Positions 5,129 through 28,839 of a stretch of DNA of 29,199 bases are shown here, piece after piece (position 1 is the first letter of the stretch; the number at the start of each line of letters is the position of its first letter). This stretch comes from a virus. The stretch is taken from the IMG/VR virus record IMGVR_UViG_3300013126_000172, positions 1 to 29,199 of that record. One strand, given 5' to 3'. A model generated the notes under the pieces. The model did not search any database, was not told where the DNA came from, and saw only the letters and a list, made by a program, of their open reading frames with translations. A program made the translations under genes and the position numbers.

Positions 5129-5878
5129 TTATCTATTTCCGAAGAATTTCAATTTATCTTCTTTTGTAGTTTTTCTTAAATCCACCGTTTGTTTTAGTGG
5201 TTCAGTTGAAGGGGCTTTAGCAAATTTATTTACAGATGCTTTTAATTCTTCATTTTCGTTTTTAACTGAGATCAATTCATCTTTTAATGATTTTAATTCA
5301 TTCATTAAAATTTCTAGGGATGAGAATACTTCATTTAATTTAGTATCATCTCTTTCTTCAGTTTCTTTTGTTTCAATCTCGTTGATATTACCTTCAGCGT
5401 CAGTATAAACAACAAGACCACCTTCTACTTCGTGTTTTCCTTCAGGAGCTGTTTTATATTCTTCACCATCTTTAACTAATACTCTATCACCAACTGATAC
5501 TGCTTCACCCTTACTTAAAATTCTGATTTCAGTTCCATCAACCAATTTGGTATCAATTTGGTTTTTGTATTCATCTTCCATTTCTTCCTCTTTGTTTTTA
5601 TATCCCATATCTTCTTCTGAAATTGATTCTTCAGATGATTTCATTTCTATAACCTTACTACCTTCTACTTCTAATACTAAACCATCTTCTAATGTGTATT
5701 CTCCGTCAGTTAATGGGACTTCACCATCTGCTGTTATTTCAACCAATTCTGATCCAACATCTAATGAATCACTTTTACATCTGATGATTCTGCCATCTGC
5801 AGTTTTATAATCAGCAAATGAATATTCTTCTGCTGAAAATAATTCTTTAATTTTTCCTAATATACTTGCTTTATTCAT
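5129..5878 (-). CDS. Scaffold-type capsid assembly protein
   Basis: This 249-residue acidic protein sits directly before the capsid gene. It has two copies of a beta motif of the form L-x-D-G-x-E-V-x-I-x-x-x-G-E (about residues 22-80 and 111-170: DGEYTLEDGLVLEVEG and GKHEVEGGLVVYTDAEG), linked by a very acidic EE-rich stretch. A coiled coil (about 182-215, LEILMNELKSLKDELISV) follows, and a basic C-terminal end (DKLKFFGNR). An acidic coiled-coil protein with a positively charged tail next to the capsid gene is typical of phage scaffolds, whose tail docks on the capsid protein. Function is inferred from position and composition. Confidence 0.7.
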   Translation of the reverse strand: MNKASILGKIKELFSAEEYSFADYKTADGRIIRCKSDSLDVGSELVEITADGEVPLTDGEYTLEDGLVLEVEGSKVIEMKSSEESISEEDMGYKNKEEEMEDEYKNQIDTKLVDGTEIRILSKGEAVSVGDRVLVKDGEEYKTAPEGKHEVEGGLVVYTDAEGNINEIETKETEERDDTKLNEVFSSLEILMNELKSLKDELISVKNENEELKASVNKFAKAPSTEPLKQTVDLRKTTKEDKLKFFGNR

Positions 5879-5890
5879 AACTAATTTACT

Positions 5891-5908
5891 TTAAATATTG
5901 TTTATTTT
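5891..5908 (-). repeat. 18-base leader repeat, copy 2
   Basis: Exact second copy of the block at 4095-4112, located 13 bases upstream of the scaffold start codon. The related AAAATAAAC core also occurs in the capsid leader (around 5105) and upstream of the gene starting at 3042 (around 3078), although it is less exact there. Confidence 0.6.
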
Positions 5909-5923
5909 ATTATGTTTAACGAA

Positions 5924-11753: not shown

Positions 11754-14555
11754 TTATGATTTTGTTATATATATTATTAAATTTACTCTTGTTACAGATG
11801 TTGCTGAATCAACATTAAATGCTACAATATCTCCTGCAGTTACAGATGTTGTCCAAGTGGTTAAATTTGTATCTTGATTTTTAACTGCTGATGATAAGGT
11901 TGGTTTTTCTGATCCTGCAATTGTATCTCCTGATGTTGGTGGAAAGTTAGCATAAGTATCTTTCCATACATCTACAACGGTTGAACCTGATGTATCAGCA
12001 AATATATCCCATCCTGTAATTGTTCCATTATAAGGTACTGTAATATAACCTTTAACTCCTGTTGTAATTGCTGAACCACCACCATCTATTGTAATACCGA
12101 ATGATCCTTTACCGCCACCAACACCAAGTAAGTTTTTACCATCACCATTATAAGTTGTTGCTGATATTGTATTAGCTGTTAATCCATTTGTGAATTGAGT
12201 TGCTCCTGTTACAGTTCCACCTGTAAATGTTCCACCACCAGCAACACTATCAACATATCCTTTATCAACTAAACTTCTATTGGTATAATTTCCAGAATAA
12301 TCAGCATCATATTCCATCATACCACCATTAATGGTAATTGCTGATGGTATAATTATTATTGATCTTGATTCTGAACCATCAATTGCTGTTATTTCTAATT
12401 GATTTGAATCTAAATTAATTGCTGTATTATCAACACCTACTGTTGATTGTGATTTTAAATAACTACCATTTAAAGGATCTAATGATAAAGTGTCTTGTGA
12501 TAAAACACTTGTATTACCAATTGCTGTTGTTACTACTGAACCATCTGTAGATGAATTTAATAATATAGTAGAAGCAACATCTGATCCAACACTATTATCA
12601 TATACTGATGCTGTATTTTGTATTGGAGTAAGAATAATTTTTGATGTATTACTACTAGCACCATCTAATGATGTTAATTCTAATGATGTTTGACCAATTG
12701 TTAAATTACCTTGATTGCCTGATACTGAATCACTTGTTGTTCCTTGAATAGTATTATATTGTGTATCTAAAAAACTTGATTGATTGATACCATTGCTAGC
12801 AGTTATAATAGCATTTGGTGGATAAATAACAATACTTGATATATCAGTTCCATTTGTGACTTCATTAGTTAAATCAACTGATGTTATTTCACTATAACCA
12901 ACACTTGACCCACTTGTAGTTATTGTTTTTGTTGAAGTAATATTTTGTTCAATTACTGATGATTGTGATGTTCCACTAGCTTTAAATTGATTTTTAACTT
13001 TATTTAATTCAATTTTATATTCTGTTGATAATGAATCAGTCATACCTGCTTCAAAACCAACACCATCTTCATATTTAATAAACCCTATGTCATTAGATAC
13101 GGCATTACTTGTATTAAATTCTATATAATCTACTTTTTGTGTTGATGTATATAAACTACCAGCATTATTATCAACATCAAATTTTAATCTATCTAATTGT
13201 TGATTTAATTCTGATATTTCACCTGATGATGTTTTGGTAATTGTCCTTTTTAAATTACTTCCACTACTATTAACATCTTTTGCTATATATGATCCACCTG
13301 TGGTATAACCTGATATTGAATTATCACTATATATTGATAATGGGGAACATCCAATAATATTTGAAACATATAAATCAGTAATACAACTTCCTGATCCTCC
13401 ACTAAATGTTAATCCACTTGTTCCTGACGAACCTGAAGTACCATTAATTCCTGATGTTCCACTTGTTCCATCAATACCTGATGTTCCATTTACACCACTT
13501 GTGCCTGATGATCCACTACTTCCACTAGTACCTGATGTCCCTGAAGATCCTGCAGATCCACTTGATCCTGATGTACCTGACGTTCCGTCAATACCGCTGG
13601 TTCCTGAGCTTCCACTTGTTCCTGACGTTCCTGACGAACCACTTGATCCATCTATACCACTCGTACCTGAACTACCACTCGTTCCTGATGTGCCATCTAT
13701 TCCACTAGTACCTGAAGATCCACTTAATCCAGATGTACCCGATGTTCCATCAATACCAGATGTACCACTTGTACCCGAACTACCACTTGATCCTGAACTA
13801 CCTGATGTACCACTTGATCCTGAACTACCTGATGTTCCTGATGATCCACTTGATCCTGATGACCCACTAGACCCCGATGAACCACTTGAACCTGATGTTC
13901 CATCAATTCCTGATGTACCAGAAGATCCTGATAAGACAGATGGGTCTTGCCACGATGCATTTCCTGTTGCATCTGAAGTTAAAATATAACCTAATGTTGC
14001 TCCTGATGTGATTTGTATTTGATCTGTTCCAATTGTGGTGGCTGTTATATTACCATTGACAGTTAAACCTGTCATTGTGTTGATATAGGTATTTAATGTT
14101 GCTCCTGAATTGGGGATAATTGTTAATTTATTAGCCCCATCATAAGTAAATCCTGTCACATATATATCACCAGCATTTATTCCTGTTAAATTTGAACCAT
14201 CACCATAAAGGGTTGTTGCTGAAAAAGATCCATTAACAGTAAGACCTGTCATATCATTAATGGTTGCTTGAAGTGTTGAACCATTATTTTGTGTAATTGT
14301 TAAAGTATTTGCATCATTATATGTAAATCCTGTTGCATAAATTGATGAGGTATAACCTGAATTTAATATTTGTAAAATACCATTTTCAGTTCTGACCCAT
14401 AAATTCTCATCTGTTGAATTTAAAAACAATTCTCCCTTGAAAATATCTGTGGGGGAGAATGTATTTAAGGTTGTTCCTGTTGGTATTGTAGGTACTACAC
14501 CAGTGTCTGTAGCTCTTTTTATAAGTAATCTTGAGTATTCGATTTTATCTGACAT
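11754..14555 (-). CDS. Collagen-like tail fibre
   Basis: The 933-residue fibre begins MSDKIEYSRLLIKRATDTG with an attachment segment (FKGELFLNSTDENLWVRT). It then has two tandem copies of a roughly 55-residue beta unit (YATGFTYNDANTLTI and VTGFTYDGANKLTI, each ending in MTGLTVNG), a collagen-like G-x-y region (about 204-381, built from GTSG, GSSG and GIDG), a long shaft, and a C-terminal domain starting near GKGSFGITIDGGG with WDIFADTSGSTVVDVWKDT. That last domain type is common at the ends of phage fibres. It presumably trimerises and contacts the host surface. Expression is from the late leader with a 26-base repeat shared with the chaperone gene. Confidence 0.8.
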   Translation of the reverse strand: MSDKIEYSRLLIKRATDTGVVPTIPTGTTLNTFSPTDIFKGELFLNSTDENLWVRTENGILQILNSGYTSSIYATGFTYNDANTLTITQNNGSTLQATINDMTGLTVNGSFSATTLYGDGSNLTGINAGDIYVTGFTYDGANKLTIIPNSGATLNTYINTMTGLTVNGNITATTIGTDQIQITSGATLGYILTSDATGNASWQDPSVLSGSSGTSGIDGTSGSSGSSGSSGSSGSSGSSGTSGSSGSSGTSGSSGSSGSSGTSGTSGIDGTSGTSGLSGSSGTSGIDGTSGTSGSSGTSGIDGSSGSSGTSGTSGSSGTSGIDGTSGTSGSSGSAGSSGTSGTSGSSGSSGTSGVNGTSGIDGTSGTSGINGTSGSSGTSGLTFSGGSGSCITDLYVSNIIGCSPLSIYSDNSISGYTTGGSYIAKDVNSSGSNLKRTITKTSSGEISELNQQLDRLKFDVDNNAGSLYTSTQKVDYIEFNTSNAVSNDIGFIKYEDGVGFEAGMTDSLSTEYKIELNKVKNQFKASGTSQSSVIEQNITSTKTITTSGSSVGYSEITSVDLTNEVTNGTDISSIVIYPPNAIITASNGINQSSFLDTQYNTIQGTTSDSVSGNQGNLTIGQTSLELTSLDGASSNTSKIILTPIQNTASVYDNSVGSDVASTILLNSSTDGSVVTTAIGNTSVLSQDTLSLDPLNGSYLKSQSTVGVDNTAINLDSNQLEITAIDGSESRSIIIIPSAITINGGMMEYDADYSGNYTNRSLVDKGYVDSVAGGGTFTGGTVTGATQFTNGLTANTISATTYNGDGKNLLGVGGGKGSFGITIDGGGSAITTGVKGYITVPYNGTITGWDIFADTSGSTVVDVWKDTYANFPPTSGDTIAGSEKPTLSSAVKNQDTNLTTWTTSVTAGDIVAFNVDSATSVTRVNLIIYITKS
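13411..13935 (-). repeat. Collagen-like Gly-x-y coding repeat
   Basis: A run of about 175 codons encodes G-T-S, G-S-S and G-I-D triplets. The DNA is a degenerate array of 9-base units (CCTGATGTT and relatives on the plus strand). Such arrays change length by slippage and recombination and can vary fibre length. The long plus-strand frame over this array is a by-product of its 9-base period. Confidence 0.85.
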
Positions 14556-14574
14556 AATCTAATTTTTTATATAG

Positions 14575-14600
14575 ATATAATTTTTATTTTATTGTTTTTT
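14575..14600 (-). repeat. 26-base leader repeat, copy 1
   Basis: The 26 bases beginning ATATAATTTTTATTTTATTG are repeated exactly at 21924-21949. Here they lie in the leader of the fibre gene, immediately after the stop of the preceding tail gene. Confidence 0.75.
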
Positions 14601-17600
14601 TAAATATCGGGTCTATAAACATTACCAAATAAAGGAATTGAACCATCGATTATAGGTCTTAATTTACTATCACCACCATAATTTCTAACTGAATTAATGC
14701 CAGCATCTAATATATCTATTAAATTTGTTTTTGATATATCCATAACTGTATTTTCCCCACCATCAATTATATAAACATAATTTGATACAATTCCATCGTT
14801 ATTGATTTTTATTCCATCTAAATAGATTGTATTTGGTTCAGTTGCTGTTAATCCATCCCCTATTATAATATTATTTGATCCATTTGGTAATATGGAGTTA
14901 TTATTACCAATAATGATTGAATTTGACGCACCTTTTCCAATATAATTATTTCTACCAAAACTTGGTATATTTGGTGAGTTTGGTGAATTGAAATTTGTTT
15001 GTTGATTGGTTGTTATTTTATCAGATATGGTTGATAAAGGGTATTCAACTACTCCTCCACCAGTTGCAGATATAGGATCAAATGGGGGTCTATTAATTCC
15101 ATTAACCCAACATACACCATTTTTTAATGTACCCTTTAATGATTTACAACATTCAGCAGATATTATTTGTCCTGATGCTGATACATAATATCTTCTACCC
15201 TTTTTATCTAATTTTCCAACAACATCTGTAGGACATGCTGAATTTGATGCTGGTATTTGCACATTGTCGGGACTGAATATTCTAAGGTCATTAATTTTAA
15301 ATAATATGACTTTTGTTAATTTATCTATTGAGACCGGATCATAATCAACAATTTTATTAATCCTCCAATAAACGTTATCTATTAAAATTATATCCCTATA
15401 ATCAAATGTTGCAATGTCTTTTGGTGTTAGATAAAACATTGCCTCCATTAACCTTGAATTAATGTCTGTAATTGAATTAAAAGTTGATTTATGGAATTTA
15501 TCCATCAGGGTTTTTAACGGATATTGACCCGAATTAAAATAGATCTTTTTTGCATTGTCAAAAGCTAGATCATAAATGGGGTTGGTGGGGTTATCCCACA
15601 TACCACAATATGGATATTTTGTTAATACAACACCTTCGTTATCTGCCTGTGATGCATAATCTTTTAATCTATATGGTGTATTTGTATTTTGTAATCCCCC
15701 ATAAAACAATATTCTTGTATTAACTTTTCTTGATGACATTTGGTTATCATTTAAATCAATAAAGAATGGGGCAACACGATCATCAATATAATTTGATGCA
15801 TTTGGTGTTGGTGAAAATAATAATTCTAATGTGTTTGTTTCATTTGAAAAGTCGTTATCTACCTCCAATATAGAATCCCCATATATTCTTTTGGTGTCAG
15901 AAAAATATTCGTTGTTATAATAATCTTCATCTTGTCTATATGTGTAGGTATAGATCTTCGCATCCAATTCTGACATCGGAATTATTTTAATATCAGAATC
16001 GTTATCAATTTTATAAGTCCAATCTTTTACTTTTTGTTTGGATCTATAATAATCATCTCTTGGTTCAATTATAAAATCCTTATCTTTATCAGGGTTATCA
16101 GCAACAATCAAATTAAACATCTTGACAATATCCAAAAAGAAGTCCTTAATTTTAACTTCATTTGGTAATACCTGATTCATATTGATATTAGCATTTGTCC
16201 CCGTTTCAATATTTGATGATGGGACAACTTCTAAATATGCTGGTATTCCTGCTTCTGATTCTTCTAATAATGCTTGAACTATAATTTTGTCATCATTTCC
16301 ATCCCAATCTACAGCTTCTGGATATTGAAGACCAAAAAAGACGACAATTCTATCTCCTTGTTCCAAATATATATTTGATGCTGCAAGACTTAATGGCATT
16401 TTATTTCCTGTGTCATACCAGGGAGATACTTGAGTATTTGTTGTTGATGGTGTAAATGTTTCTGGCACTTCAGATGTATCTAATATGTTAGATGCCGTCC
16501 CACTTGCATTTATTTTAAATAATCTATAATAATAATTAAAATCACCATCCTGATATTTGACCGTATTAACACTTATATCTGTATTGATATATTTCATTAC
16601 CATAACGGCATTGAAATTTATATCATAATATCCTGATTCTTGACAAGTATATTTATTTTGTGTTGGTGATAGTGATGGTGCAAATGAATTTAAAGGGTCT
16701 TGAAATGTCTTATCTCCTACCTCCCCACTCTCTCTATCAAAACCTATATAATAATTCGTTGTATCGTTTTTATACCACTGATAACCATACCACATTAATG
16801 GGGTTATACTTCTATAACCTGTATCAAATGGTTCAGAAAATTGTGATGAATACTGATTGAATAATGATGTTTGCTCCCCATTTGAAGCATTTATACCAAC
16901 GATGGTTGTTTGCTGATTAATTTTTGTTTCATCCTTTTCTATTTTATCATTAACATATGGTAAAATTAACTTTTTAAAATAATCTGAATTAAAGAAATTT
17001 GAACTATAGGTTGTGCCAGCAAGATCAAATATCTTATCAATAATTGTTTTAACATAAACAGCAGGAAATATATCATATGCATATAAATTATTTAATATGT
17101 CTTGTGAATTTCCATTTATAATATAGGGATATACATAACCAGTTCCCCCTTCACCAACATTAACATCTTCATTAAATGACTTGATGGTATATTGCCAAGA
17201 ATTTTGAATATTTGTTTTTGATCGTTGGTGGTTGTATTCACTTAAATCCAAGTTTCTTAATGTAAGATCCCCGAAGTCAAATAATATTGTCCTTAAAAGT
17301 CCTGTAATAATAATCTCATATTCAACAAGACCATTATTGATTACAACGTTTAATAATTGTAAATCACCCTTAATTAATTGATTGTCTCCAATTCTTAATT
17401 CTGCTGATATTTTTTTAACGGGGTTGAATGATGCTGAATCAACATCAACTTGAAATATCCTTTTAAAGAATTTGTTATTTTCAGGAGTACCTGGAAGTAT
17501 TATGGTTTTTGAATAACTTGAGTTTCTTTTTGTGATATCTAAAATATCTTCTATCTGATAGTTTAAACTGATGTTAATATTGTCGTAAGTATCTAATACT

Positions 17601-17632
17601 TTTTGTTGAGCTATTATTTGAAAATCGTTCAT
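14600..17632 (-). CDS. Large tail protein with YadA-like beta-roll end
   Basis: This 1010-residue protein begins MNDFQIIAQQKVLDTYDN and continues ISLNYQIEDILDITKRNSSY then SKTIILPGTPENNKFF, a strongly conserved opening in tail proteins of Bacteroidetes phages, next to the tail tip genes. The middle looks like a distal-tail or baseplate hub structure with many aromatic residues. The C-terminal part contains SNSIIIGNNNSILPNGSNNI followed by IGDGLTATEPNTIYLDG, which fits the left-handed beta-roll repeat of YadA-type heads. CPTDVVGKLDKKGRRYYVSA and a CC pair precede it. It likely links tail tip and fibre. It has 166 bases upstream with a terminator, so it may begin its own transcript. Confidence 0.7.
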   Translation of the reverse strand: MNDFQIIAQQKVLDTYDNINISLNYQIEDILDITKRNSSYSKTIILPGTPENNKFFKRIFQVDVDSASFNPVKKISAELRIGDNQLIKGDLQLLNVVINNGLVEYEIIITGLLRTILFDFGDLTLRNLDLSEYNHQRSKTNIQNSWQYTIKSFNEDVNVGEGGTGYVYPYIINGNSQDILNNLYAYDIFPAVYVKTIIDKIFDLAGTTYSSNFFNSDYFKKLILPYVNDKIEKDETKINQQTTIVGINASNGEQTSLFNQYSSQFSEPFDTGYRSITPLMWYGYQWYKNDTTNYYIGFDRESGEVGDKTFQDPLNSFAPSLSPTQNKYTCQESGYYDINFNAVMVMKYINTDISVNTVKYQDGDFNYYYRLFKINASGTASNILDTSEVPETFTPSTTNTQVSPWYDTGNKMPLSLAASNIYLEQGDRIVVFFGLQYPEAVDWDGNDDKIIVQALLEESEAGIPAYLEVVPSSNIETGTNANINMNQVLPNEVKIKDFFLDIVKMFNLIVADNPDKDKDFIIEPRDDYYRSKQKVKDWTYKIDNDSDIKIIPMSELDAKIYTYTYRQDEDYYNNEYFSDTKRIYGDSILEVDNDFSNETNTLELLFSPTPNASNYIDDRVAPFFIDLNDNQMSSRKVNTRILFYGGLQNTNTPYRLKDYASQADNEGVVLTKYPYCGMWDNPTNPIYDLAFDNAKKIYFNSGQYPLKTLMDKFHKSTFNSITDINSRLMEAMFYLTPKDIATFDYRDIILIDNVYWRINKIVDYDPVSIDKLTKVILFKINDLRIFSPDNVQIPASNSACPTDVVGKLDKKGRRYYVSASGQIISAECCKSLKGTLKNGVCWVNGINRPPFDPISATGGGVVEYPLSTISDKITTNQQTNFNSPNSPNIPSFGRNNYIGKGASNSIIIGNNNSILPNGSNNIIIGDGLTATEPNTIYLDGIKINNDGIVSNYVYIIDGGENTVMDISKTNLIDILDAGINSVRNYGGDSKLRPIIDGSIPLFGNVYRPDI

Positions 17633-17675
17633 ATAATTTTTAAATAAATATTATTTTATGGTGATTGTTTTTAAT

Positions 17676-17762
17676 ATAAAAACCCCACCTACAGAATTAT
17701 AGATGGGGCTTAAAGAAAAAAACCTAAAAATGGCAAGAAAGATTTAAATATAAATATACATA
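17676..17762 (-). ncRNA. Candidate small RNA between two tail genes
   Basis: A CATATATTTATA box at 17768-17779 is followed about 60 bases later by a terminator, and no ORF of useful length lies between. A transcript starting about 7 bases past the box would be roughly 85 bases with a U-rich middle. The simpler reading is that the terminator only ends the upstream tail operon; then the box has no purpose here. Start is estimated. Confidence 0.3.
17678..17708 (-). terminator. Terminator after the 653-residue tail gene
   Basis: On the minus strand CCCCATCTA pairs fully with TAGGTGGGG (one U-G wobble) around a short loop and is followed by five T residues. The plus strand has a C/A mismatch at the wobble position, which shows the minus RNA is the functional one. 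It separates two large tail genes. Confidence 0.8.
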
Positions 17763-17767
17763 TTACA

Positions 17768-17779
17768 TATAAATATATG
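17768..17779 (-). promoter_or_regulatory. CATATATTTATA box, copy 1
   Basis: One of three exact copies of this 12-mer in intergenic DNA, all on the minus strand (others at 27633 and 28828). No conserved -33 element is seen 20 bases upstream. Read as an extended -7 box. It lies between the stop of a tail gene and a terminator. Confidence 0.4.
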
Positions 17780-17798
17780 CAAGTTTAGCAAAAGTTCA

Positions 17799-19760
17799 TT
17801 AAAATCTAAATTCGTTATAAGAAATTATTAAATTAAACTCATATTTGAAGATGTCCTCATTTATTTTCTTATATATTTCAATATTTGATTCTGATAGTTG
17901 AGCTGGATATATCTTGCCATCAGGACTTTGCATATAAACAGATGGGGACTGAATTAGATCTTTCATCAATTCTCTTTCAAATTCAAATAACCACCCCGAA
18001 TTAAGGGTATATATTTCTTTTGATTTTTGATAAAAATCTTTTGTTCCTCTATCCCACTGATCATAACCAAATGATCCTACTGAAAAATTACCTTCTGTTT
18101 TATAATAAGATGATTTAACACTCTCAATTGATTCTCTTGATATGTAAATAAATGGATATGTGATAAACGATCCATTCTTATCTTTCCACATAATGTGATA
18201 TATTTCATACATACTACAATCATTATTCAATTCAAATACAATATCTTTTGACATTTGAGTGTAAGTCATGCCAGTTAAATCAACTGCAAATACACTATAT
18301 GAATTAACATTACCCGAATAACCACTAAATTGATTTGTTATTTCTGTTTTATTTGGTGTTTTTGCTATTTGATCTAATCCTATTGGTGAATAAAAATCTG
18401 TTGCTCCTGATGGTTTTGGTATTACAAGTTCCCCTAATGTATTGCTATTGTTATCATAAAATACATAAGCCATGCCATCCACAAATGATCCTGTCCCTTC
18501 GCAATGTGTTAATAAAAACCCTATTGATGATCTTTCAATTCTATAATTATGATTTGTATTTAAAATGGTGGAGATATTCTCTAATGTGGCACCAGGTTGA
18601 ATTACATAATCATTAAAATAAGTTGTCGTATAATCAGGTCTATCAATATGTGCATTATATGTCCTTTTATTTAATATTTCTGCTTTAACGGGGGTTTGTG
18701 ATAACCTTCCATCTGCATATTTTATATATCCACTAATTGCAACTGATGATGTTGCATAAGGTATATCAGTTAAAATACATAACCCCAATGTGGGATGAAC
18801 GAATATTTGTGTAATTGTCCCCACCGTATTATATGTAGGTCTTGGTGTTCCAAATATCTGTCCTCCTTCTACTGGTGTATTTCCTTGATATGCTTTTGAT
18901 GTTATGACATATTGTGTTCCTGCTGATAAAATGGTTGTCTGTCCATTATAGAATGGAAATGTATTTTGACCAGCAACTGTTATTGTTTGTCCCGATAAGA
19001 ATGAATGGGTGGTATTTCCTGTAAATCCTACATAACCATCGCTAAAAAAGTTATCAGTATAATTCCATATTGATATATTCTGTTCAATAATAACCTCATC
19101 CCCTACTTGGAATATGGTATCATTAACATTTGTTAAACCAGTATTATTAAATCCTACTGTCCCACCACTAAAAAAGTTATCATTAAATGGAAATGAATAT
19201 AATGTTTCTTCACCAGCATATATGTCATATTCGAACATCGTGTCAGTTCCTTCATATGATAAGCCATAAGATATAACATTTGGATATGTTGTGGTGTCTG
19301 CTGATAAATTCTGTGATACAAAATCCTTTAATGTATTTGATAAATTCACATTCCCATATCCATAAGGGTTTGGATCAATTTTATATTTAATTACATTTGC
19401 TAATATAAATGAAAATGATGTTATGGGTGCTGATGGTTCTAATGTTATAACCACTTGTGTTGATGATAATACTCTAACAACATCATAATATCCATTTACA
19501 GACGATCCTGATGAATATAATAGGATCTTATCCCCTACCGTAAAAGAATGTGCTGTAGTGGTTGTAAATTGTGTATATATTTCATTTTCTAATGGATAAG
19601 CTTGTGCTGTTGATCCACTTGATGTTACCCTATTCCAACATAAATTTATCAGATATTTATATTGATCGTAATCATCATAATTTGTTGAATATACTTGAAC
19701 GGGTACTGCTGAATAAGCTGCCGTGTAATTGCTTGGTGTTATTGTAAATGAATATGACAT
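17799..19760 (-). CDS. Large structural tail protein
   Basis: This 653-residue protein starts MSYSFTITPSNYTAAYSAVP, an opening I associate with tail proteins of Bacteroidetes and freshwater phages, without a firm family name. Much of it is beta-rich with two related segments (DNFFSGGTVGFNNTGLTN and DNFFSDGYVGFTGNTTHSF), each followed by a FxxGxxVxI strand, so it has an internal duplication of about 60 residues. The C-terminal 200 residues include SKDIVFELNNDCSMYEIYHI and GYDQWDRGTKDFYQKSKEIY. It is placed after the gp10-like gene and before the 1010-residue protein, where tail tip or distal tail proteins normally lie. Confidence 0.6.
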   Translation of the reverse strand: MSYSFTITPSNYTAAYSAVPVQVYSTNYDDYDQYKYLINLCWNRVTSSGSTAQAYPLENEIYTQFTTTTAHSFTVGDKILLYSSGSSVNGYYDVVRVLSSTQVVITLEPSAPITSFSFILANVIKYKIDPNPYGYGNVNLSNTLKDFVSQNLSADTTTYPNVISYGLSYEGTDTMFEYDIYAGEETLYSFPFNDNFFSGGTVGFNNTGLTNVNDTIFQVGDEVIIEQNISIWNYTDNFFSDGYVGFTGNTTHSFLSGQTITVAGQNTFPFYNGQTTILSAGTQYVITSKAYQGNTPVEGGQIFGTPRPTYNTVGTITQIFVHPTLGLCILTDIPYATSSVAISGYIKYADGRLSQTPVKAEILNKRTYNAHIDRPDYTTTYFNDYVIQPGATLENISTILNTNHNYRIERSSIGFLLTHCEGTGSFVDGMAYVFYDNNSNTLGELVIPKPSGATDFYSPIGLDQIAKTPNKTEITNQFSGYSGNVNSYSVFAVDLTGMTYTQMSKDIVFELNNDCSMYEIYHIMWKDKNGSFITYPFIYISRESIESVKSSYYKTEGNFSVGSFGYDQWDRGTKDFYQKSKEIYTLNSGWLFEFERELMKDLIQSPSVYMQSPDGKIYPAQLSESNIEIYKKINEDIFKYEFNLIISYNEFRF

Positions 19761-21109: not shown

Positions 21110-21911
21110 ATTAATGTATTTTTGTTATTCTGTTCGTTTATTTTGTCCCTCTGATAAAAATAAGACATCCAATTTAAACAACTTATATAGTTTTTCTTAT
21201 ATATTTTATCATCAGTGGTATTCAATTCTCTTATAAGCAAATGAACCATCGCTAACCATTTATATTTATCGTCCATTTGAACATTACTTTTTAAGTCAAA
21301 TTTACTCTTTTTCTTCCCCTCCTTTTTTATTGTTTTTCCAAATAATCCTTCGTATTGATGTCTGATAAATTGCCGCCAGTTAAAAAAAAAACAAATAGGG
21401 GATAAACCTCCTTGATATTTAGTGATTTAAATAACTCTTGTCTATTCATAAAATCTGATTTGAATTTTTCCAATTCACCATTTTCCTTTTTCTTTCTTAA
21501 AAATATTGCCAATAATTGTGGCATTACTGAAAATAAATTACCATTTGAAGAATTGATGATCATTTCAATTGATATTACTTCTCCCATCGTTAATTTTGAA
21601 AAATCACTTTTTAAATAATATCTTTCATCATTAATATCCACATATTCAACTGGCTCTCCTTCAATTTCTTTATTTGTGAATGATATGTTATCAATTAGAT
21701 TTAGAAAATCGTGGTAATCAATTGCCATAAGATCATCTTCACTAATCCCCATAAAAATTGTTAATATTTTAACTGATATTTCTATTGCATTTTTTTCATC
21801 TCTATTAAATGAAAATATCTGTGCAAATTGCTCTACACTAACCTCACTCCAATCGGTGGGCAAATTGAATGATTTTTCTTCGTCTTCTAATATTAAATTG
21901 ACCTGTATCAT
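21106..21911 (-). CDS. Tail assembly chaperone GT, made by -1 frameshift
   Basis: A hidden gene: the minus strand between 21381 and 21106 is open in the -1 frame relative to the upstream gene, giving 91 residues starting NWRQFIRHQYEGLFGKT and ending NNKNTLI, stop TGA at 21106-21108. The junction is the slippery heptamer T TTT TTA, where the upstream protein frame reads GTT TTT TTT TTA ACT. A shift there yields a fusion of about 268 residues (177 from the first frame plus 91). This is the G/GT arrangement of tail assembly chaperones in long-tailed phages, placed between the terminase and tail structural genes as expected, although the tape measure is further away than usual. The -1 part has one internal ATG (at MDDKYK) but no independent leader. 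Confidence 0.75.
21327..21911 (-). CDS. Tail assembly chaperone G (unshifted product)
   Basis: The 194-residue protein begins MIQVNLILEDEEKSFNLPTD and is acidic and alpha-helical; its middle has FMGISEDDLMAIDY and a strand YVDINDERYYLKSDFSKL, and it has a KKKEN stretch. These features and the position between terminase and tail genes fit a tail assembly chaperone, though sequence similarity within the family is low. It ends TGGNLSDINTKDYLEKQ after the slippery site, so only 17 residues differ from the frameshift product. The start has a leader with the 26-base repeat and a TTATATTTAATT box 6 bases ahead. Such chaperones are not in mature virions. Confidence 0.7.
   Translation of the reverse strand: MIQVNLILEDEEKSFNLPTDWSEVSVEQFAQIFSFNRDEKNAIEISVKILTIFMGISEDDLMAIDYHDFLNLIDNISFTNKEIEGEPVEYVDINDERYYLKSDFSKLTMGEVISIEMIINSSNGNLFSVMPQLLAIFLRKKKENGELEKFKSDFMNRQELFKSLNIKEVYPLFVFFLTGGNLSDINTKDYLEKQ
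21381..21387 (-). promoter_or_regulatory. Programmed -1 frameshift site T TTT TTA
   Basis: The sequence is part of a run of ten T residues followed by AA. In the reading frame it is T TTT TTA, the classical slippery heptamer also used by HIV-1. The -1 frame stays open for 91 codons to a stop that overlaps the next ATG, strong evidence that slippage is used. Confidence 0.8.
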
Positions 21912-21923
21912 AATTTTAATTAA

Positions 21924-21949
21924 ATATAATTTTTATTTTATTGTTTTTT
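21924..21949 (-). repeat. 26-base leader repeat, copy 2
   Basis: Exact repeat of 14575-14600. Here the last codons and stop of the HNH gene lie inside it. Its TTATTGTTTTTTAC part also recurs just past the large terminase stop. Confidence 0.75.
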
Positions 21950-22450
21950 ACGTCTATCCCGTAATGCTTTAGCTCTACAATTTAAATGACAATATTTACT
22001 CCTATCAGGGAATGGTGTTTGATATTCTTTACCACAAACTTGACAATTTAAAGTAGTATATTGTTTATTCTCCCACGATTTTTTACCTATTTCACTATGG
22101 AATTTTCTACCTTCTTCTGATTTGTGCCATTCTTTTGATGCTTCTCTACCTTTTTTATTAAATTCTTTGAACCATTCAGGATCTTCTTCAATCCTTCGTT
22201 TTGATTCATAAGATAGATGTTCTTTAGCCATCATCAATTGAAGATTATCAATTCTATTATCGTGACTATCCCCGTTAATATGGTGAATATGAAATCCCTT
22301 TGGTATTTTACCATTATGATATTCCCATACTACCCTATGCATTCTTTTAGTTCCTCTTGAAAAATATCTTTGATTTGGATATAAATAATAAGTTTTACCA
22401 TCAAACTCCTGTGTTGGTATTTCAATTTTTTGTGTTAATTCGCATCCCAT
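21938..22450 (-). CDS. HNH homing endonuclease inserted after terminase
   Basis: This 170-residue protein has an HNH-type nuclease motif: MHRVVWEYHNGKIPKGFHIHH, with H56-H57 and INGDSHDNRIDNL giving the second half. A lysine-rich linker leads to a C-terminal zinc-ribbon-like segment (LNCQVCGKEYQTPF, then KYCHLNCRAKAL). It is free-standing, placed between the terminase and the chaperone. The end of the ORF (KKQ-stop) is made of a 14-base sequence that is repeated 567 bases away just after the terminase stop, suggesting insertion of the gene with duplication of a preexisting junction. Homing nucleases cut uninserted relatives and spread by repair. Not required for virion building. Confidence 0.85.
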   Translation of the reverse strand: MGCELTQKIEIPTQEFDGKTYYLYPNQRYFSRGTKRMHRVVWEYHNGKIPKGFHIHHINGDSHDNRIDNLQLMMAKEHLSYESKRRIEEDPEWFKEFNKKGREASKEWHKSEEGRKFHSEIGKKSWENKQYTTLNCQVCGKEYQTPFPDRSKYCHLNCRAKALRDRRKKQ

Positions 22451-24072: not shown

Positions 24073-24498
24073 TTAATTTTTAAATTCATTTATAATTGAT
24101 TGATCATTTTTGAACCATTCTCTATGTAATTGTTTTAATTTTATAGGGTTATTAAGATGCTTGAATTTTTTATGTATTGTTGATTCTAAAAATGAATAAT
24201 TTGGTAATAATTGAATTATATTTATTTGATTCAATTTCATTTGATTTTTAATTGATCTCAATCTTTCATCTATATTATTAGTTATACCAATTTTTAATAA
24301 ATCCAATTCAGGTGAATATAAAAGATATAATATATTTGAATTCCAATTTTTAGAATATTTTTTACATAATTCAATTAATTCCATAATTTTATTATGTTGA
24401 TCAATAGTTTTTGTATAATTATTATTTATGCAATTCATAATAATATCATCTAATTGATTCATATATTTATAATACTGTTTTTTATCTGATAGTTTCAT
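24073..24498 (-). CDS. GIY-YIG-like nuclease (MUG113/T5orf172 type)
   Basis: The protein is 141 residues. The middle (56-80) reads ILYLLYSPELDLLKIGITNN, which matches the GIY-YIG core in the T5orf172/MUG113 group (x-Y-x-L-x-S, then K-I-G-x-T-x-x and R79). The C-terminal third contains SFLESTIHKKFKHLNNPIKL and EWFKND, the H-x-x-F and E-W-F signature of the group. The N-terminus is helical with no clear family. Its start overlaps the methyltransferase stop by 4 bases (ATGA), and its stop is 2 bases from terS. It may be a homing endonuclease or a damaged relative; the catalytic R and E seem present. Confidence 0.7.
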   Translation of the reverse strand: MKLSDKKQYYKYMNQLDDIIMNCINNNYTKTIDQHNKIMELIELCKKYSKNWNSNILYLLYSPELDLLKIGITNNIDERLRSIKNQMKLNQINIIQLLPNYSFLESTIHKKFKHLNNPIKLKQLHREWFKNDQSIINEFKN

Positions 24499-26429
24499 TT
24501 TAAAAATTGTCTATATTCTTGATAATTTTTTATTCTTGCTTCTGCTATTTTAAAATATTCTTCATCCATTTCCATTCCGATGAATTCATATCCCCCTAAA
24601 AGTGTTGCAATACCTGTTGATCCTGATCCCATAAATGGATCTAATATAACTCCACCTTTTGGTGTTATAAGATTTACAAGGTAATACATAAGTTGAACTG
24701 GCTTAACAGTTGGATGTGATGTTTTATCCTCAAAATGGTCTAAGCCCATATTTCTTTCCTTCTTACTTACTTTTGCTTGATAGAAAAATCTACTTGCTCC
24801 ACCTTTACTTGATGGGTAATCTTTAATGTCATTACCACCACCTAAATTACCTCCATCATATTTCTTTTTTGGCTTTGATGCTCCAGTAATACTAATACCA
24901 CTTTGTTCGTCTAATATTCTACAAGGACAATCGGGGTTGGTATGTATGTCTGCTTTATCTTTATACCAAGTACCTTCTATTTCTTTTGCTGTTGGTTGTG
25001 TTTTTCTCCCATCTTTTTTACCATATTCACCATTTCCATAATTATCAAAAGTTTGTTTTTTTAATCCATTATTTTCACCTTTAATCACTTCATCACATAT
25101 ACACTCTAAAATAATGTTGGCTGGAAATCTACCTTCACTATCTCTATAAGAATTAGTATCACTTCCTCTACCTGCTTCACCACCAGCAAATGTTCCTTTC
25201 GGTGCATTATGTATTGATATAATTTCGATTCCAACCCTACTTCCATCAATATTTATCCCACCAGTTCCATATTTTAATACATTTTCAACAATTGTTTTTT
25301 CTGATAAAGGCTTTCTTGCCAAACAGATTGGTTCATTTAGACAATCCATTTTGTCTTCCTTGTATATAACATTGTCTTCCACAGAATGTCGTTGGATGTC
25401 TTTCAACTTCAAGTTTAAGGCGTTGAAAAGAACCTCCGCAGTTAAGACATTTACATTCACACCATCTGTCTGTTTGTTTTTGACTTGGATGATGTTCTCT
25501 AATATGTTCTGCCACTCCAACGATTTTAAGGTTTTCAAGTCTATTATCAGATTTGATTTCGTTGATGTGGTGTATCTGCTCATCTTTTGATAAAGGTCTT
25601 CCAATATGTTGCTCCATAATCCAACGGTGTTCCAACATATATTTTCCATCAATCTTAATTGCGACATATCCATCAGCCCTTGTAAAGCGACCTGTATATT
25701 GGTGTTTTTCTCTACAAGACATTGAGCAGTATCTAACGCCTCTTTTTGCTCTACTTGGTTTAACTCGGAACTGCTCTCCACAATTTTCACATATAATTTC
25801 CATAATTCACTTTTTATTATATATATCAAGTTTAACGCCGTTCCCTCTAAATCTTCTGGCTTCTGAGCCACGGCTATAATTTCCTGTGCTGGTTTGAGCG
25901 ATGTTCCCCATCCTTCCCATTCAGATTGACCTTTTGTTTCTTTATTATTAACTTCATATCCAAACATTCCATAACTTCCTCCTCCGTGTCTTTTACTATC
26001 ACCAACTACCACTCTTTCATTACCTTGTAATTTATCAACCGCCTTACCGATGTTTAATGACTTTGGAAACCCACTTCCATATAACCACATAATCTGGTCT
26101 CTTATTTCAAAACCAGCATCTTCTATATTTACAGCCATTCTGTGATATGTTCTTGTTCCACCGAATGATACTACATGCCCACCTGGTTTTAACACACGAT
26201 ACACTTCACGCCAGAACTCAACCGTTGGAACTTCAGCATCCCATTCTTTACCCATAAATCCTTTTGATGCTCGTTGAAATGCACCATCAGTTCCATATTG
26301 TGCTGATCCTTCTTTACCAAATCTTTTTCTTATGCTGGTTAAAGCATAAGGTGGATCTGTTACAACACTATCAACTGAATTGTCATCTAGTGTTTTTAAT
26401 AATTCTAAATTGTCTCCCTGTAATATCAT
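24495..26429 (-). CDS. DNA methyltransferase with large insertion
   Basis: The reading frame is open for 644 codons. Residues 1-180 are a normal DNA methyltransferase start: LQGDNLELLKTLDDNSVDSV then DPPY (25-28), VYRVLKPGGHVVSFGGTRT, and SWEGWGTSLKP-type ending; DPPY favours N6-adenine as target. The C-terminus has VILDPFMGSGSTG (594-606), the SAM-binding motif, so motif order (IV before I) is beta-type. Residues about 181-365 are foreign: a short homologous stretch QEIIAVAQKPEDLEGTAL is followed by ~155 residues that are the shadow of a nested HNH gene, and then the methyltransferase resumes at EPICLARKPLSEKTIVENVL. The conserved E-x-I-x-x-A-x-K-P segment therefore appears twice. Whether the product is active is unknown. 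Confidence 0.75.
   Translation of the reverse strand: MILQGDNLELLKTLDDNSVDSVVTDPPYALTSIRKRFGKEGSAQYGTDGAFQRASKGFMGKEWDAEVPTVEFWREVYRVLKPGGHVVSFGGTRTYHRMAVNIEDAGFEIRDQIMWLYGSGFPKSLNIGKAVDKLQGNERVVVGDSKRHGGGSYGMFGYEVNNKETKGQSEWEGWGTSLKPAQEIIAVAQKPEDLEGTALNLIYIIKSELWKLYVKIVESSSELNQVEQKEALDTAQCLVEKNTNIQVALQGLMDMSQLRLMENICWNTVGLWSNILEDLYQKMSRYTTSTKSNLIIDLKTLKSLEWQNILENIIQVKNKQTDGVNVNVLTAEVLFNALNLKLKDIQRHSVEDNVIYKEDKMDCLNEPICLARKPLSEKTIVENVLKYGTGGINIDGSRVGIEIISIHNAPKGTFAGGEAGRGSDTNSYRDSEGRFPANIILECICDEVIKGENNGLKKQTFDNYGNGEYGKKDGRKTQPTAKEIEGTWYKDKADIHTNPDCPCRILDEQSGISITGASKPKKKYDGGNLGGGNDIKDYPSSKGGASRFFYQAKVSKKERNMGLDHFEDKTSHPTVKPVQLMYYLVNLITPKGGVILDPFMGSGSTGIATLLGGYEFIGMEMDEEYFKIAEARIKNYQEYRQFLK
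25333..25803 (-). CDS. HNH endonuclease nested in the methyltransferase gene
   Basis: This 156-residue protein starts MEIICENCGEQFRV with a zinc ribbon (C5, C8, then YCSMSC near 27-32), then an HNH-like core: EHRWIMEQHIGRPLSKDE, QIHHINEIKSDNRLENL and EHIREHHPSQK, and a C-terminal second zinc ribbon (CKCLNCGGSF and FCGRQCY). It lies wholly inside the methyltransferase ORF in a different frame on the same strand; the methyltransferase frame is open through the whole nested gene. The arrangement of HNH core between two Cys clusters fits free-standing homing endonucleases of phages. The codon style and position inside a conserved motif suggest recent arrival. Confidence 0.85.
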   Translation of the reverse strand: MEIICENCGEQFRVKPSRAKRGVRYCSMSCREKHQYTGRFTRADGYVAIKIDGKYMLEHRWIMEQHIGRPLSKDEQIHHINEIKSDNRLENLKIVGVAEHIREHHPSQKQTDRWCECKCLNCGGSFQRLKLEVERHPTTFCGRQCYIQGRQNGLSK

Positions 26430-26709: not shown

Positions 26710-27228
26710 TTATTTTATATTTTTTTTTATTTTAATTTTCATTTTCTTAATGCAATGAAATGCTGATACGTGATCAATATCCCAGTCCTTTTCAATCTCT
26801 CTAAATGTCTTATCTTTAACAAAATATTCTTCCCACATTAAATTGTCAAACCAGCTTTTTGAAATATTCTTATATATCTTCTGTATCTTATCCAATTTCT
26901 CTTCAAATATAATCTTATTCTCAATATCCTGATCGTCGTCCAGAATGGTTATATTCTCATAAAAATCATAATCTTTTATTCTTACATTCTTATGAAAGGA
27001 TGATGTATTACTATGAATTTGAAATCTCACCACGTTGATAAAATAATATTTAAAATATCCTTCATTATATATCCTTTCAATTTTTTCTTTATTCTCCAAA
27101 AATGATAAAGCAATTTCTGATATCAATTCTGGTTTTAAGTCAAATCGGGGAGTTATTAAATTGTTTATAATTTCATCATAAATGCTCCCTGATGTGCAAA
27201 TCTCCTTTAATATGTTATCTAATACCAA
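26710..27228 (-). CDS. Sigma-like HTH transcription regulator
   Basis: The 172-residue protein begins MVLDNILKEICTSGSIYDEI. Its last third reads SKSWFDNLMWEEYFVKDKTF followed by REIEKDWDIDHVSAFHCIKK, a two-helix pattern that resembles sigma region 4 or an ECF-like helix-turn-helix with recognition helix VSAFHCIKKMK. An acidic stretch (LDDDQDIENKIIFEEKLDKI) precedes it. It is one of two sigma-like proteins here and stands at the head of the late genes, so a role in late transcription is plausible. No region 2 core is obvious, so it may act as an anti-sigma or accessory DNA-binding protein instead. The next gene starts 2 bases after its stop. Confidence 0.55.
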   Translation of the reverse strand: MVLDNILKEICTSGSIYDEIINNLITPRFDLKPELISEIALSFLENKEKIERIYNEGYFKYYFINVVRFQIHSNTSSFHKNVRIKDYDFYENITILDDDQDIENKIIFEEKLDKIQKIYKNISKSWFDNLMWEEYFVKDKTFREIEKDWDIDHVSAFHCIKKMKIKIKKNIK

Positions 27229-27621: not shown

Positions 27622-27632
27622 AAGCTTTTTAT

Positions 27633-27644
27633 TATAAATATATG
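27633..27644 (-). promoter_or_regulatory. CATATATTTATA box, copy 2
   Basis: Exact 12-mer located in the 24-base gap between the HNH/sigma-like gene and the 129-residue gene, 11 bases before that start. It may be a promoter -7 box with a near-leaderless transcript. Confidence 0.45.
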
Positions 27645-27645
27645 G

Positions 27646-28485
27646 TTATTTCAAAAAGTTATATTCTTTAAATATTTTTTTGTAATTTTTGTTTATATAT
27701 GTATATAAACGCCTTCTTAAATTATTTGCTTGATTCTTATCAATATTTAATTCACTCATAACCCTATTTATATTCCCTCCATCCAACGTTATTAGTAGAT
27801 GTTGATATAATGTATCATCTTTTAATTTTAAATCTCTTAAAATCAATTCAAATATGTTATTTAGATCATCATTTTCTTCTTTAACCGGTATTAAAAATTC
27901 AGATTCAGTTATATCATAATTTTTATCTAATATCTTTTGTTCCCTATTATATCTTTTTCTTTCAGCATTAAATTCGTTTTTGCATAATATAAACATATAA
28001 CCCTTTATATCATTTAAGTTGGTGGTTATTTTACCCTGATTTATCTTATTAATGATCTTGATGAATGAATTATTTATAATTGTATTTCTTGTATTTTTAT
28101 CCCTATAGGTTTTAAACCCTGGCTGCATATTTAAATTCTTTCTAATCATCTTCAATAATTCTTTTTCACTTATTGATAAATCAGGATATTGATATTTTAA
28201 CTGGGGGTTTTGAAATCTAAGATTAGATATTGATGAGTTGCTGTTATCCCCATCCAAATGTATTACTCTTGCTCTATCATATACTTCATTTGTTGCCATA
28301 TATATGATAAAATCATCTTGAGTAATTGTTGCTTTAAAATCAGCAACTAATATTATTTTTTTATTATTATGATTTTTTGATATTAATTCTTTTCCTTCTG
28401 CATTATATACTATGCCTTTTTCAACATCACAAGTATATCCTTTCTCTATTAAGTATTTGATTTTTGTTAATTTATCCATTGCCAT
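27646..28485 (-). CDS. HNH-like domain fused to sigma-like domain
   Basis: The 279-residue protein seems to have two parts. Residues about 17-95 resemble HNH/AP2-type nuclease cores: DDFIIYMATNEVYDRARVIH then LDGDNSNSSISNLRF, with H76 and the N-x-x-N-L hallmark, but the second histidine pair is not clear, so catalysis may be lost. Residues about 135-275 look like a small sigma factor: NDIKGYMFILCKNEFNAERK recalls region 2, and TLYQHLLITLDGGNINRVMS followed by ELNIDKNQANNLRRRLYTYI recalls region 4. The start chosen is ATG 28485; a second ATG two codons later is possible. It is first in the leftward gene set, behind a TATATTTTATA box. It may direct late transcription. Confidence 0.5.
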   Translation of the reverse strand: MAMDKLTKIKYLIEKGYTCDVEKGIVYNAEGKELISKNHNNKKIILVADFKATITQDDFIIYMATNEVYDRARVIHLDGDNSNSSISNLRFQNPQLKYQYPDLSISEKELLKMIRKNLNMQPGFKTYRDKNTRNTIINNSFIKIINKINQGKITTNLNDIKGYMFILCKNEFNAERKRYNREQKILDKNYDITESEFLIPVKEENDDLNNIFELILRDLKLKDDTLYQHLLITLDGGNINRVMSELNIDKNQANNLRRRLYTYINKNYKKIFKEYNFLK

Positions 28486-28496
28486 TTTATTTTAAT

Positions 28497-28509
28497 TATA
28501 AATATATGA
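28497..28509 (-). promoter_or_regulatory. Variant CATATATTTTATA box
   Basis: Same as the 12-mer but with one extra T in the T run. It lies 11 bases before the start of the HNH/sigma-like gene, at the same distance as the box upstream of the 129-residue gene. Confidence 0.35.
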
Positions 28510-28534
28510 TAAATTAAAAAAATATTATATTTAG

Positions 28535-28592
28535 GTAATATAAATTAAGTTATCCCCCCTACCCCCCATAAGAAAAGATAACTTAAATTACC
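28535..28592. repeat. Long inverted repeat with C-rich loop
   Basis: GGTAAT and TTAAGTTATC (with a 5-base insert between) at 28535-28555 pair with GATAACTTAAATTACC at 28577-28592. That is 16 paired bases plus one bulge, with a loop holding two cytosine runs separated by TA, a marked GC-rich spot in AT-rich DNA. It lies in the control region between leftward and rightward transcription. A replication origin, an operator or a packaging signal are possible. It is not a T-run terminator in the usual sense. Confidence 0.7.
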
Positions 28593-28726
28593 ACTATATT
28601 TGAGGCTAATGGTTATCATAAGTTGTCGAACGATAGAGCCATTATTTAAAATTGAAATATTATTTTATTTAACTTTTGATCAGTCCTCCACCATGCTTAT
28701 GTGTCTTGCCAAGATAGGATAAAATA
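28593..28726. other. Intergenic region without a supported gene
   Basis: From the inverted repeat to the terminator I see no convincing gene. A 37-codon plus-strand frame (28609-28722) exists but has no promoter, no typical leader and an odd composition. No tRNA cloverleaf was found on either strand by eye. Confidence 0.6.
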
Positions 28727-28827: not shown

Positions 28828-28839
28828 TATAAATATATG
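28828..28839 (-). promoter_or_regulatory. CATATATTTATA box, copy 3
   Basis: Exact third copy of the 12-mer, about 60 bases upstream of a leftward terminator. A weak TTTA lies 19 bases upstream where TTTG would be in a host-type promoter. Confidence 0.5.

Follow-up and report, generated by a model that had tools for sequence, protein, structure and literature searches.

The window analysed here is the whole 29,199-base stretch from IMG/VR, which encodes a portal protein, the large and small terminase subunits, tail and head proteins and a DNA methyltransferase. Its large terminase is 52% identical to those of Flavobacterium psychrophilum phages such as Fpv5. The gene order of the window was found across most of the length of 12 further IMG/VR contigs, and these were joined with the window to form a 13-phage comparison set. 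Four Bacteroidota phages with related terminases, carrying neither of the sigma-like proteins described below (P1 and P3) nor any Sigma70_r2 protein, served as outgroup. No replication protein was matched among the window genes searched, and the window yielded no match to Rfam and no tRNA. Of note, about 6 kb appear to be repeated at the ends of contig G007 (34,147 bases), which suggests a genome near 28 kb. The methyltransferase reading frame (24495-26429, minus strand) contains an extra central stretch, approximately residues 203-365, that is unmatched in relatives; inside it and in another frame lies an HNH reading frame (25333-25803, minus strand; HNH_3 at 4.6e-10), and the extra stretch may stem from the insertion of an endonuclease without interruption of the outer frame.

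The region under study is composed of three neighbouring minus-strand genes, P1, P2 and P3, together with promoter-like sites and a conserved intergenic element (Table 1). The reading frame that a sequence-only reading had singled out as an HNH-like and sigma-like fusion is indeed present there, on the minus strand, with an ATG start and 279 codons for amino acids.

Table 1. Coordinates of the genes, domains and candidate signals in the window.
Feature	Positions	Strand	Evidence or context
P1, fusion of a degenerate HNH domain with predicted ECF-like sigma2-sigma4, 279 aa, ATG start	27646..28485	-	
P1 HNH-derived N-terminal region, ~residues 1-95 (domain ~5-95)	28201..28485	-	homology and alignment of catalytic positions
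P1 sigma2-like domain, ~residues 102-188	27922..28182	-	AF2 model and VIA match to T4 gp55
P1 sigma4-like helix-turn-helix domain, ~residues 206-272	27670..27870	-	VIA matches to SigW and BldN
P2, small protein directly before P3	27232..27621	-	similar-sized ORFs at this place in most relatives
P3, second sigma-like protein, sigma2 ~residues 1-85, sigma4 ~100-172	26710..27228	-	
Conserved intergenic element upstream of P1, possible structured RNA	28554..28710	-	nhmmer E 1.1e-10, model from four other phages
Class A promoter-like site	28489..28529	-	10 nt before P1; leave-one-group-out 20.9 bits
Class A promoter-like site	27625..27665	-	10 nt before P2; 26.1 bits
Class A promoter-like site	17760..17800	-	24.6 bits; hairpin and T-run terminator ~85 nt on
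Exact CATATATTTATA with A-like upstream box	28828..28839	-	under scan threshold; hairpin and T-run terminator ~95 nt downstream
Class B promoter-like site	17635..17675	-	9 nt before 1010-aa late gene 14600-17632; 17.5 bits
Class B promoter-like site	14562..14602	-	13 nt before fibre-like gene 11754-14555; 22.7 bits
Class B promoter-like site	21911..21951	-	6 nt before gene 21327-21911; 17.8 bits
Class B promoter-like site	5882..5922	-	10 nt before gene 5129-5878; 14.3 bits, at threshold

In its N-terminal part, P1 is homologous to HNH endonucleases. Its residues 5-94 match the HNH endonuclease family phrog_959 (E 0.0015), and the match to Pfam HNH_3 has an E-value of 0.016, under the Pfam cut-off. 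The assignment is firm because P1 finds a complete HNH protein (L026) by tblastn at E 7e-9 and because a P1 homolog (L004:1-804) exceeds the HNH_3 cut-off, with 27.6 versus 24.8 bits. An HNH/AP2-like core had been proposed; the HNH half is upheld by phrog_959 and the relatives, and the AP2 half is withdrawn, as no AP2 domain was matched in P1 and the AP2-like tail of the free-standing HNH relatives is missing, with the sigma part in its place. In the AF2 model the N-terminal 100 residues have pLDDT below 50, the alignment used being short of HNH rows and hence giving a poor N-terminal fold, so that the HNH identity rests on sequence and not on structure. Single-sequence searches of IMG/VR and of a phage collection returned no P1 relatives, and those discussed here were found through P3 and gene order.

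The catalytic residues of I-HmuI are D74, H75 and N96 (PMC12724721). At these positions P1 has Ile75, His76 and Lys97, respectively, so that only the histidine is kept; the D74 and N96 positions are occupied by Ile and Val in a related free-standing gene (L007) and by Asn and Leu in the L004 homolog. Two of the three positions are thus lost, so that the domain, which would descend from a phage homing endonuclease, is probably no longer a nuclease. That the HNH part still nicks DNA, P1 then being a homing endonuclease targeted by a sigma-like tail, would fit the retention of His76 and of the NL motif, and is most improbable in view of the replacements in all three proteins. The domain may instead have been recycled as a DNA-binding module.

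The C-terminal part of P1 is predicted to be a two-domain ECF-like sigma factor, consisting of sigma2 and sigma4. P1 itself is unmatched by the Pfam and PHROG sigma models. Among its homologs, that of L021 matches phrog_1740, 'RNA polymerase sigma factor', at 1.7e-9 and Sigma70_r4_2 at 2.2e-5, its gene (in G005) lying above the Sigma70_r4_2 cut-off in a whole-contig search, and that of L003 matches phrog_1740 at 8e-8. A profile built from eight relatives of the C-terminal part recovers sigma-H (3mzy) at E 5.4e-4 over both domains, and such relatives sit upstream of P3 in most related phages. The AF2 model of P1 has a mean pLDDT of 59.1, with residues 102-183 and 207-272 mostly between 70 and 90. 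When the model of residues 102-272 was compared with the PDB by Foldseek and VIA, the top rows were almost all sigma factors: residues 99-195 superpose on T4 gp55 (7d7c_F) with a VIA Z of 7.4 and an rmsd of 2.9 over 88 aligned residues, and the sigma4 domain superposes on SigW (rmsd 1.6 over 62) and on BldN (rmsd 1.5 over 58). Foldseek gave no single match to the P1 model with E <0.001, and the sigma call thus rests on the agreement of many rows and on the homologs.

P3 is a protein of 172 amino acids with a TTG start. It is present in all 13 related phages compared and is 47-66% identical in 17 other loci; distant relatives of near 200 amino acids occur in further phages. Like P1, P3 itself is unmatched by the Pfam and PHROG sigma models; a divergent relative (L068) matches Sigma70_r4 at 5e-4, under the cut-off, and neither the phage collection nor 84,980 species genomes yielded a match to P3. 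Its predicted model is all-helical with two domains (mean pLDDT 77.6), and the PDB rows retrieved with it are nearly all sigma factors, many of them aligned over the whole length, including sigma-H 3mzy (Z 8.9, rmsd 2.1 over 68) and sigma-28 (Z 8.8, rmsd 5.7 over 136). The two-domain helical model and these rows identify P3 as a second sigma-like protein. The sequence-only reading had noticed its sigma-4-like helix-turn-helix, which is correct and incomplete, as a sigma2 domain is also present. Structure prediction had been named both as a check and as one of the tests that could overturn the proposal; it gave the C-terminal region of P1 a sigma fold, where a sigma region 2/4-like part had been suspected, as well as in P3, in line with the idea of two divergent sigma-like proteins in one phage.

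In principle, the fusion seen in P1 could be recent, without function or an assembly error that joined a sigma gene to the gene of an HNH homing endonuclease. Mobile HNH genes are frequent in this group of phages, and the majority of P1 relatives have no HNH part. Nevertheless, the homolog in L004, which lies on a different contig and whose reading frame runs past the contig edge at its 5' end, likewise joins HNH to sigma and is followed by homologs of P2 and P3. It is only 31% identical to P1 and the N96 position is lost in both, which indicates that the fusion is old and has been kept open and makes an accidental junction very unlikely.

Parts of homing endonucleases were also found with sigma genes in other phages. 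The tail of the P1-type protein of L019 matches NUMOD1 at 6.4e-4, slightly under the cut-off, and tails similar to it by eye were seen in L016, L018, L021 and L035. L007 carries a sigma gene that scores above the Sigma70_r2 cut-off, and the start of this gene is overlapped by a free-standing HNH-like gene in which the D74 and N96 positions are both lost. Phages more distant from the window have a divergent P3-type sigma gene directly preceded by an HNH gene whose motif appears intact and which ends in an HTH-like tail (L074:9670-10683, L068:5306-6397 and L087:8500-9591). Together, the NUMOD1-like tails, the L007 gene and the HNH genes of the distant contigs show that the association between sigma genes and homing-endonuclease parts recurs. 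The tails of the P1 relatives and the HNH-like gene of L007 may, in the same way as the P1 domain, be recycled DNA-binding modules.

A promoter-like 12-mer had also been pointed out. The exact sequence CATATATTTATA occurs 5 times in the window against 0.06 expected, four copies being intergenic on the minus strand and three of those lying within class A sites as defined below. With 2 mismatches allowed there is no enrichment (27 versus 26 expected), and the exact 12-mer is absent from most relatives, the core in common being ATATTTATWA. Across the 13 phages, intergenic copies of this core point toward the next gene in 47 cases and away from it in 4, and mostly end 2-19 nt before a start codon. 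Alignment of the sites revealed a second, upstream box in two forms; in both, some 13-16 nt separate the end of the box from the common ATATTTATWA. The class A upstream (-35-like) box is roughly TTGACTTTT and precedes the sigma operon and regulatory and other early-side genes; that of class B is roughly TAAAAACA and precedes late structural genes. The recurring 12-mer thus marks a real signal, a longer one with two boxes, of which it supplies only the -10-like half.

The two classes were evaluated with weight matrices trained without the tested phage and its near relatives, at a threshold of 14 bits. By this leave-one-group-out procedure, class B gave 45 sites toward genes, 0 away and 3 inside genes, and class A gave 31, 1 and 5, respectively. 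Shuffled upstream regions yielded means of 0.26 (class B) and 0.10 (class A) as compared with 45 and 30 real regions. Late genes follow class B in 41 of 45 regions, and genes of other kinds follow class A in 29 of 30 (Fisher p 2e-15). A DNA-only scan with strict patterns was then extended to the 2.9 million viral contigs of IMG/VR. Strict class B was found in 18 stretches, all in contigs that encode the late proteins of the window's phage group, some of these contigs coming from the training set and others being new. Strict class A was found in 22 stretches, of which 12 fall within the same group.

The remaining ten class A stretches are located in other phages, several of them just before a homing-endonuclease-like gene. 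Class A sites were seen in unrelated phages before small genes, several of which resemble HNH or GIY-YIG endonucleases (L067, L069-L072, L075, L077, L080, L083 and L088), and endonuclease genes may travel with a class A promoter. P3 was not detected in the unrelated class A phages by a search that also missed known divergent copies.

One reading of the sites is that classes A and B are host-type promoters used by host sigmas, P1 and P3 being otherwise employed, for example as anti-sigmas or activators with a sigma-like fold. The resemblance of class A to the canonical TTGAC...-10 layout and its occurrence in unrelated phages would agree with this. On the contrary, the four outgroup phages, which lack these sigma proteins, contain no class A or class B site, the strict class A pattern has 0 matches in the 84,980 species genomes, and each of the three largest unrelated class A contigs encodes a Sigma70_r2 protein. 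The Flavobacterium sigma-A box is TAnnTTTG (PMC9723704). This box points more often toward genes than away in the four P3-less relatives, a bias that nearly vanishes in the P3-bearing phages (38 toward and 31 away). By this orientation test, a simple TAnnTTTG host box does not account for the sites. On balance, a purely host-directed origin of the two classes is unlikely.

Another reading takes ATATTTATWA as a translation-start signal of Bacteroidota-type mRNAs instead of a promoter element. The short distance of most copies to start codons is what such a signal would show, as is the lack of Shine-Dalgarno sites in the host group (PMC6847099). It does not explain the second conserved box at a fixed distance upstream, in two alternative forms, nor the sites that lie 100-550 nt from the next gene, some of these then followed by terminators; moreover Fpv5, which has a similar base composition, has no gene-oriented ATATTTATWA. 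A translational role is hence highly improbable. The suggestion that the phage possesses its own promoter recognition system is, in turn, strengthened by two oriented classes of fixed spacing in 13 phages, by their early-side and late split and by their absence from the four relatives without these sigmas.

Two further features of the intergenic regions deserve mention. At 17680-17800 (minus strand), a class A site overlaps the end of a gene; downstream of it come a strong terminator and, ahead of the next late gene, a class B site. Given this terminator, the class A site (17760-17800) could yield no more than a short RNA, about 100 nt long. The conserved element upstream of P1 has counterparts at L055:9960-10162 (-), L057:10990-11193 (-), L058:8283-8485 (+) and L052:319-544 (-). 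It measures 160-200 nt and, in many of the group's phages, occupies the space between the sigma gene and the divergently oriented gene next to it, frequently following a class A site. It has no match in Rfam and is possibly a non-coding RNA or another DNA signal.

Domain content, folds, synteny, the promoter classes and their division between gene sets were computed directly. The reading that best accommodates them, with a probability of roughly 0.72, is that P1 and P3 are phage sigmas that reprogram the host RNA polymerase, P1 with a probably non-cutting HNH part, and that with the core enzyme they serve classes A and B, which share ATATTTATWA. From here we infer polymerase binding, the assignment of sigmas to classes, DNA reading by the HNH part and timing. 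In such a scheme, P1, P2 and P3 would first be made by the host RNA polymerase, after which P1 and P3 would bind the core enzyme and direct it to phage promoters, class A serving the sigma operon and its neighbours and class B the structural genes. The favoured assignment is that P3 would read class B, as P3 and this class are both kept throughout the group, in contrast to P1-type proteins, which are highly variable or give way to a different type of sigma. P1-type sigmas would act in an earlier step, perhaps on class A. Nevertheless, both classes are kept across phages whose P1 proteins are very different or of another type, so that P1 need not read either, and P3 would be the likelier and more conserved promoter reader. 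Because unrelated larger phages also have class A in front of homing endonuclease genes, the factor that reads it may be a shared one or a host sigma. A bolder version, in which the promoter choice of the sigma P1 is set by its recycled, catalytically dead homing-endonuclease domain, and in which phages repeatedly equip sigmas with HNH or NUMOD1 DNA readers to create private early and late promoter codes, is tentative and rather doubtful.

It is well established that phages encode sigma factors, that they have late promoter classes and that HNH homing endonucleases are common among them. Most knowledge of phage sigma factors comes from larger phages that infect model bacteria. These factors include SPO1 gp28 and gp33-34 and the phiEco32 sigma, and SPO1 uses more than one. 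The sigma factor of phage 7-11 belongs to this repertoire (PMC8948821). T4 gp55 and other phage sigmas send the host RNA polymerase to later genes, and the system predicted for P1 and P3 would be similar in this respect; here a candidate late promoter class (B) is known from its DNA pattern. Compared with known phage sigma systems, the window phage differs in its size of about 28-30 kb, in the HNH fusion and in the use of two -35-like boxes with one -10-like box. The literature searched, which covered few subscription journals, describes no HNH-sigma fusion and no phage of such a size that pairs two sigma-like proteins with two promoter classes built on a common -10-like box. Two sigmas appear to be encoded by this compact group related to Flavobacterium phages, along with two promoter classes predictable from the DNA alone. 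The HNH-sigma fusion would represent a route from a selfish endonuclease to a transcription regulator, and the class A and B promoters could become tools for Bacteroidota, in which orthogonal promoters are scarce.

ECF-type sigmas, made of sigma2 and sigma4 without sigma3, resemble P1 and P3 in having two helical domains with a short linker, the structural matches being SigL, SigH, SigE, SigW and BldN. P1 departs from them by its HNH-derived N-terminal extension and by the lack of a Pfam sigma match of its own, and both proteins differ in being encoded by a phage and in the AT-rich -10-like box common to two promoter classes. The I-HmuI-like HNH homing endonucleases of phages are homologous to the N-terminal part of P1, in which the D74 and N96 positions are lost and the AP2-like segment of free-standing relatives is missing. 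The nearest idea to the HNH-sigma fusion is the pair of a nuclease-dead Cas12f and an ECF sigma (PDB 9n9q). This pair acts in RNA-guided transcription. Phage TldR likewise is a former nuclease that serves transcription (PMC13418256). As proposed for P1, both are cases of a former nuclease in transcription, that of Cas12f moreover with a sigma factor; P1 differs from them by its other nuclease fold, by the fusion of the domain to the sigma and by being known without a guide RNA.
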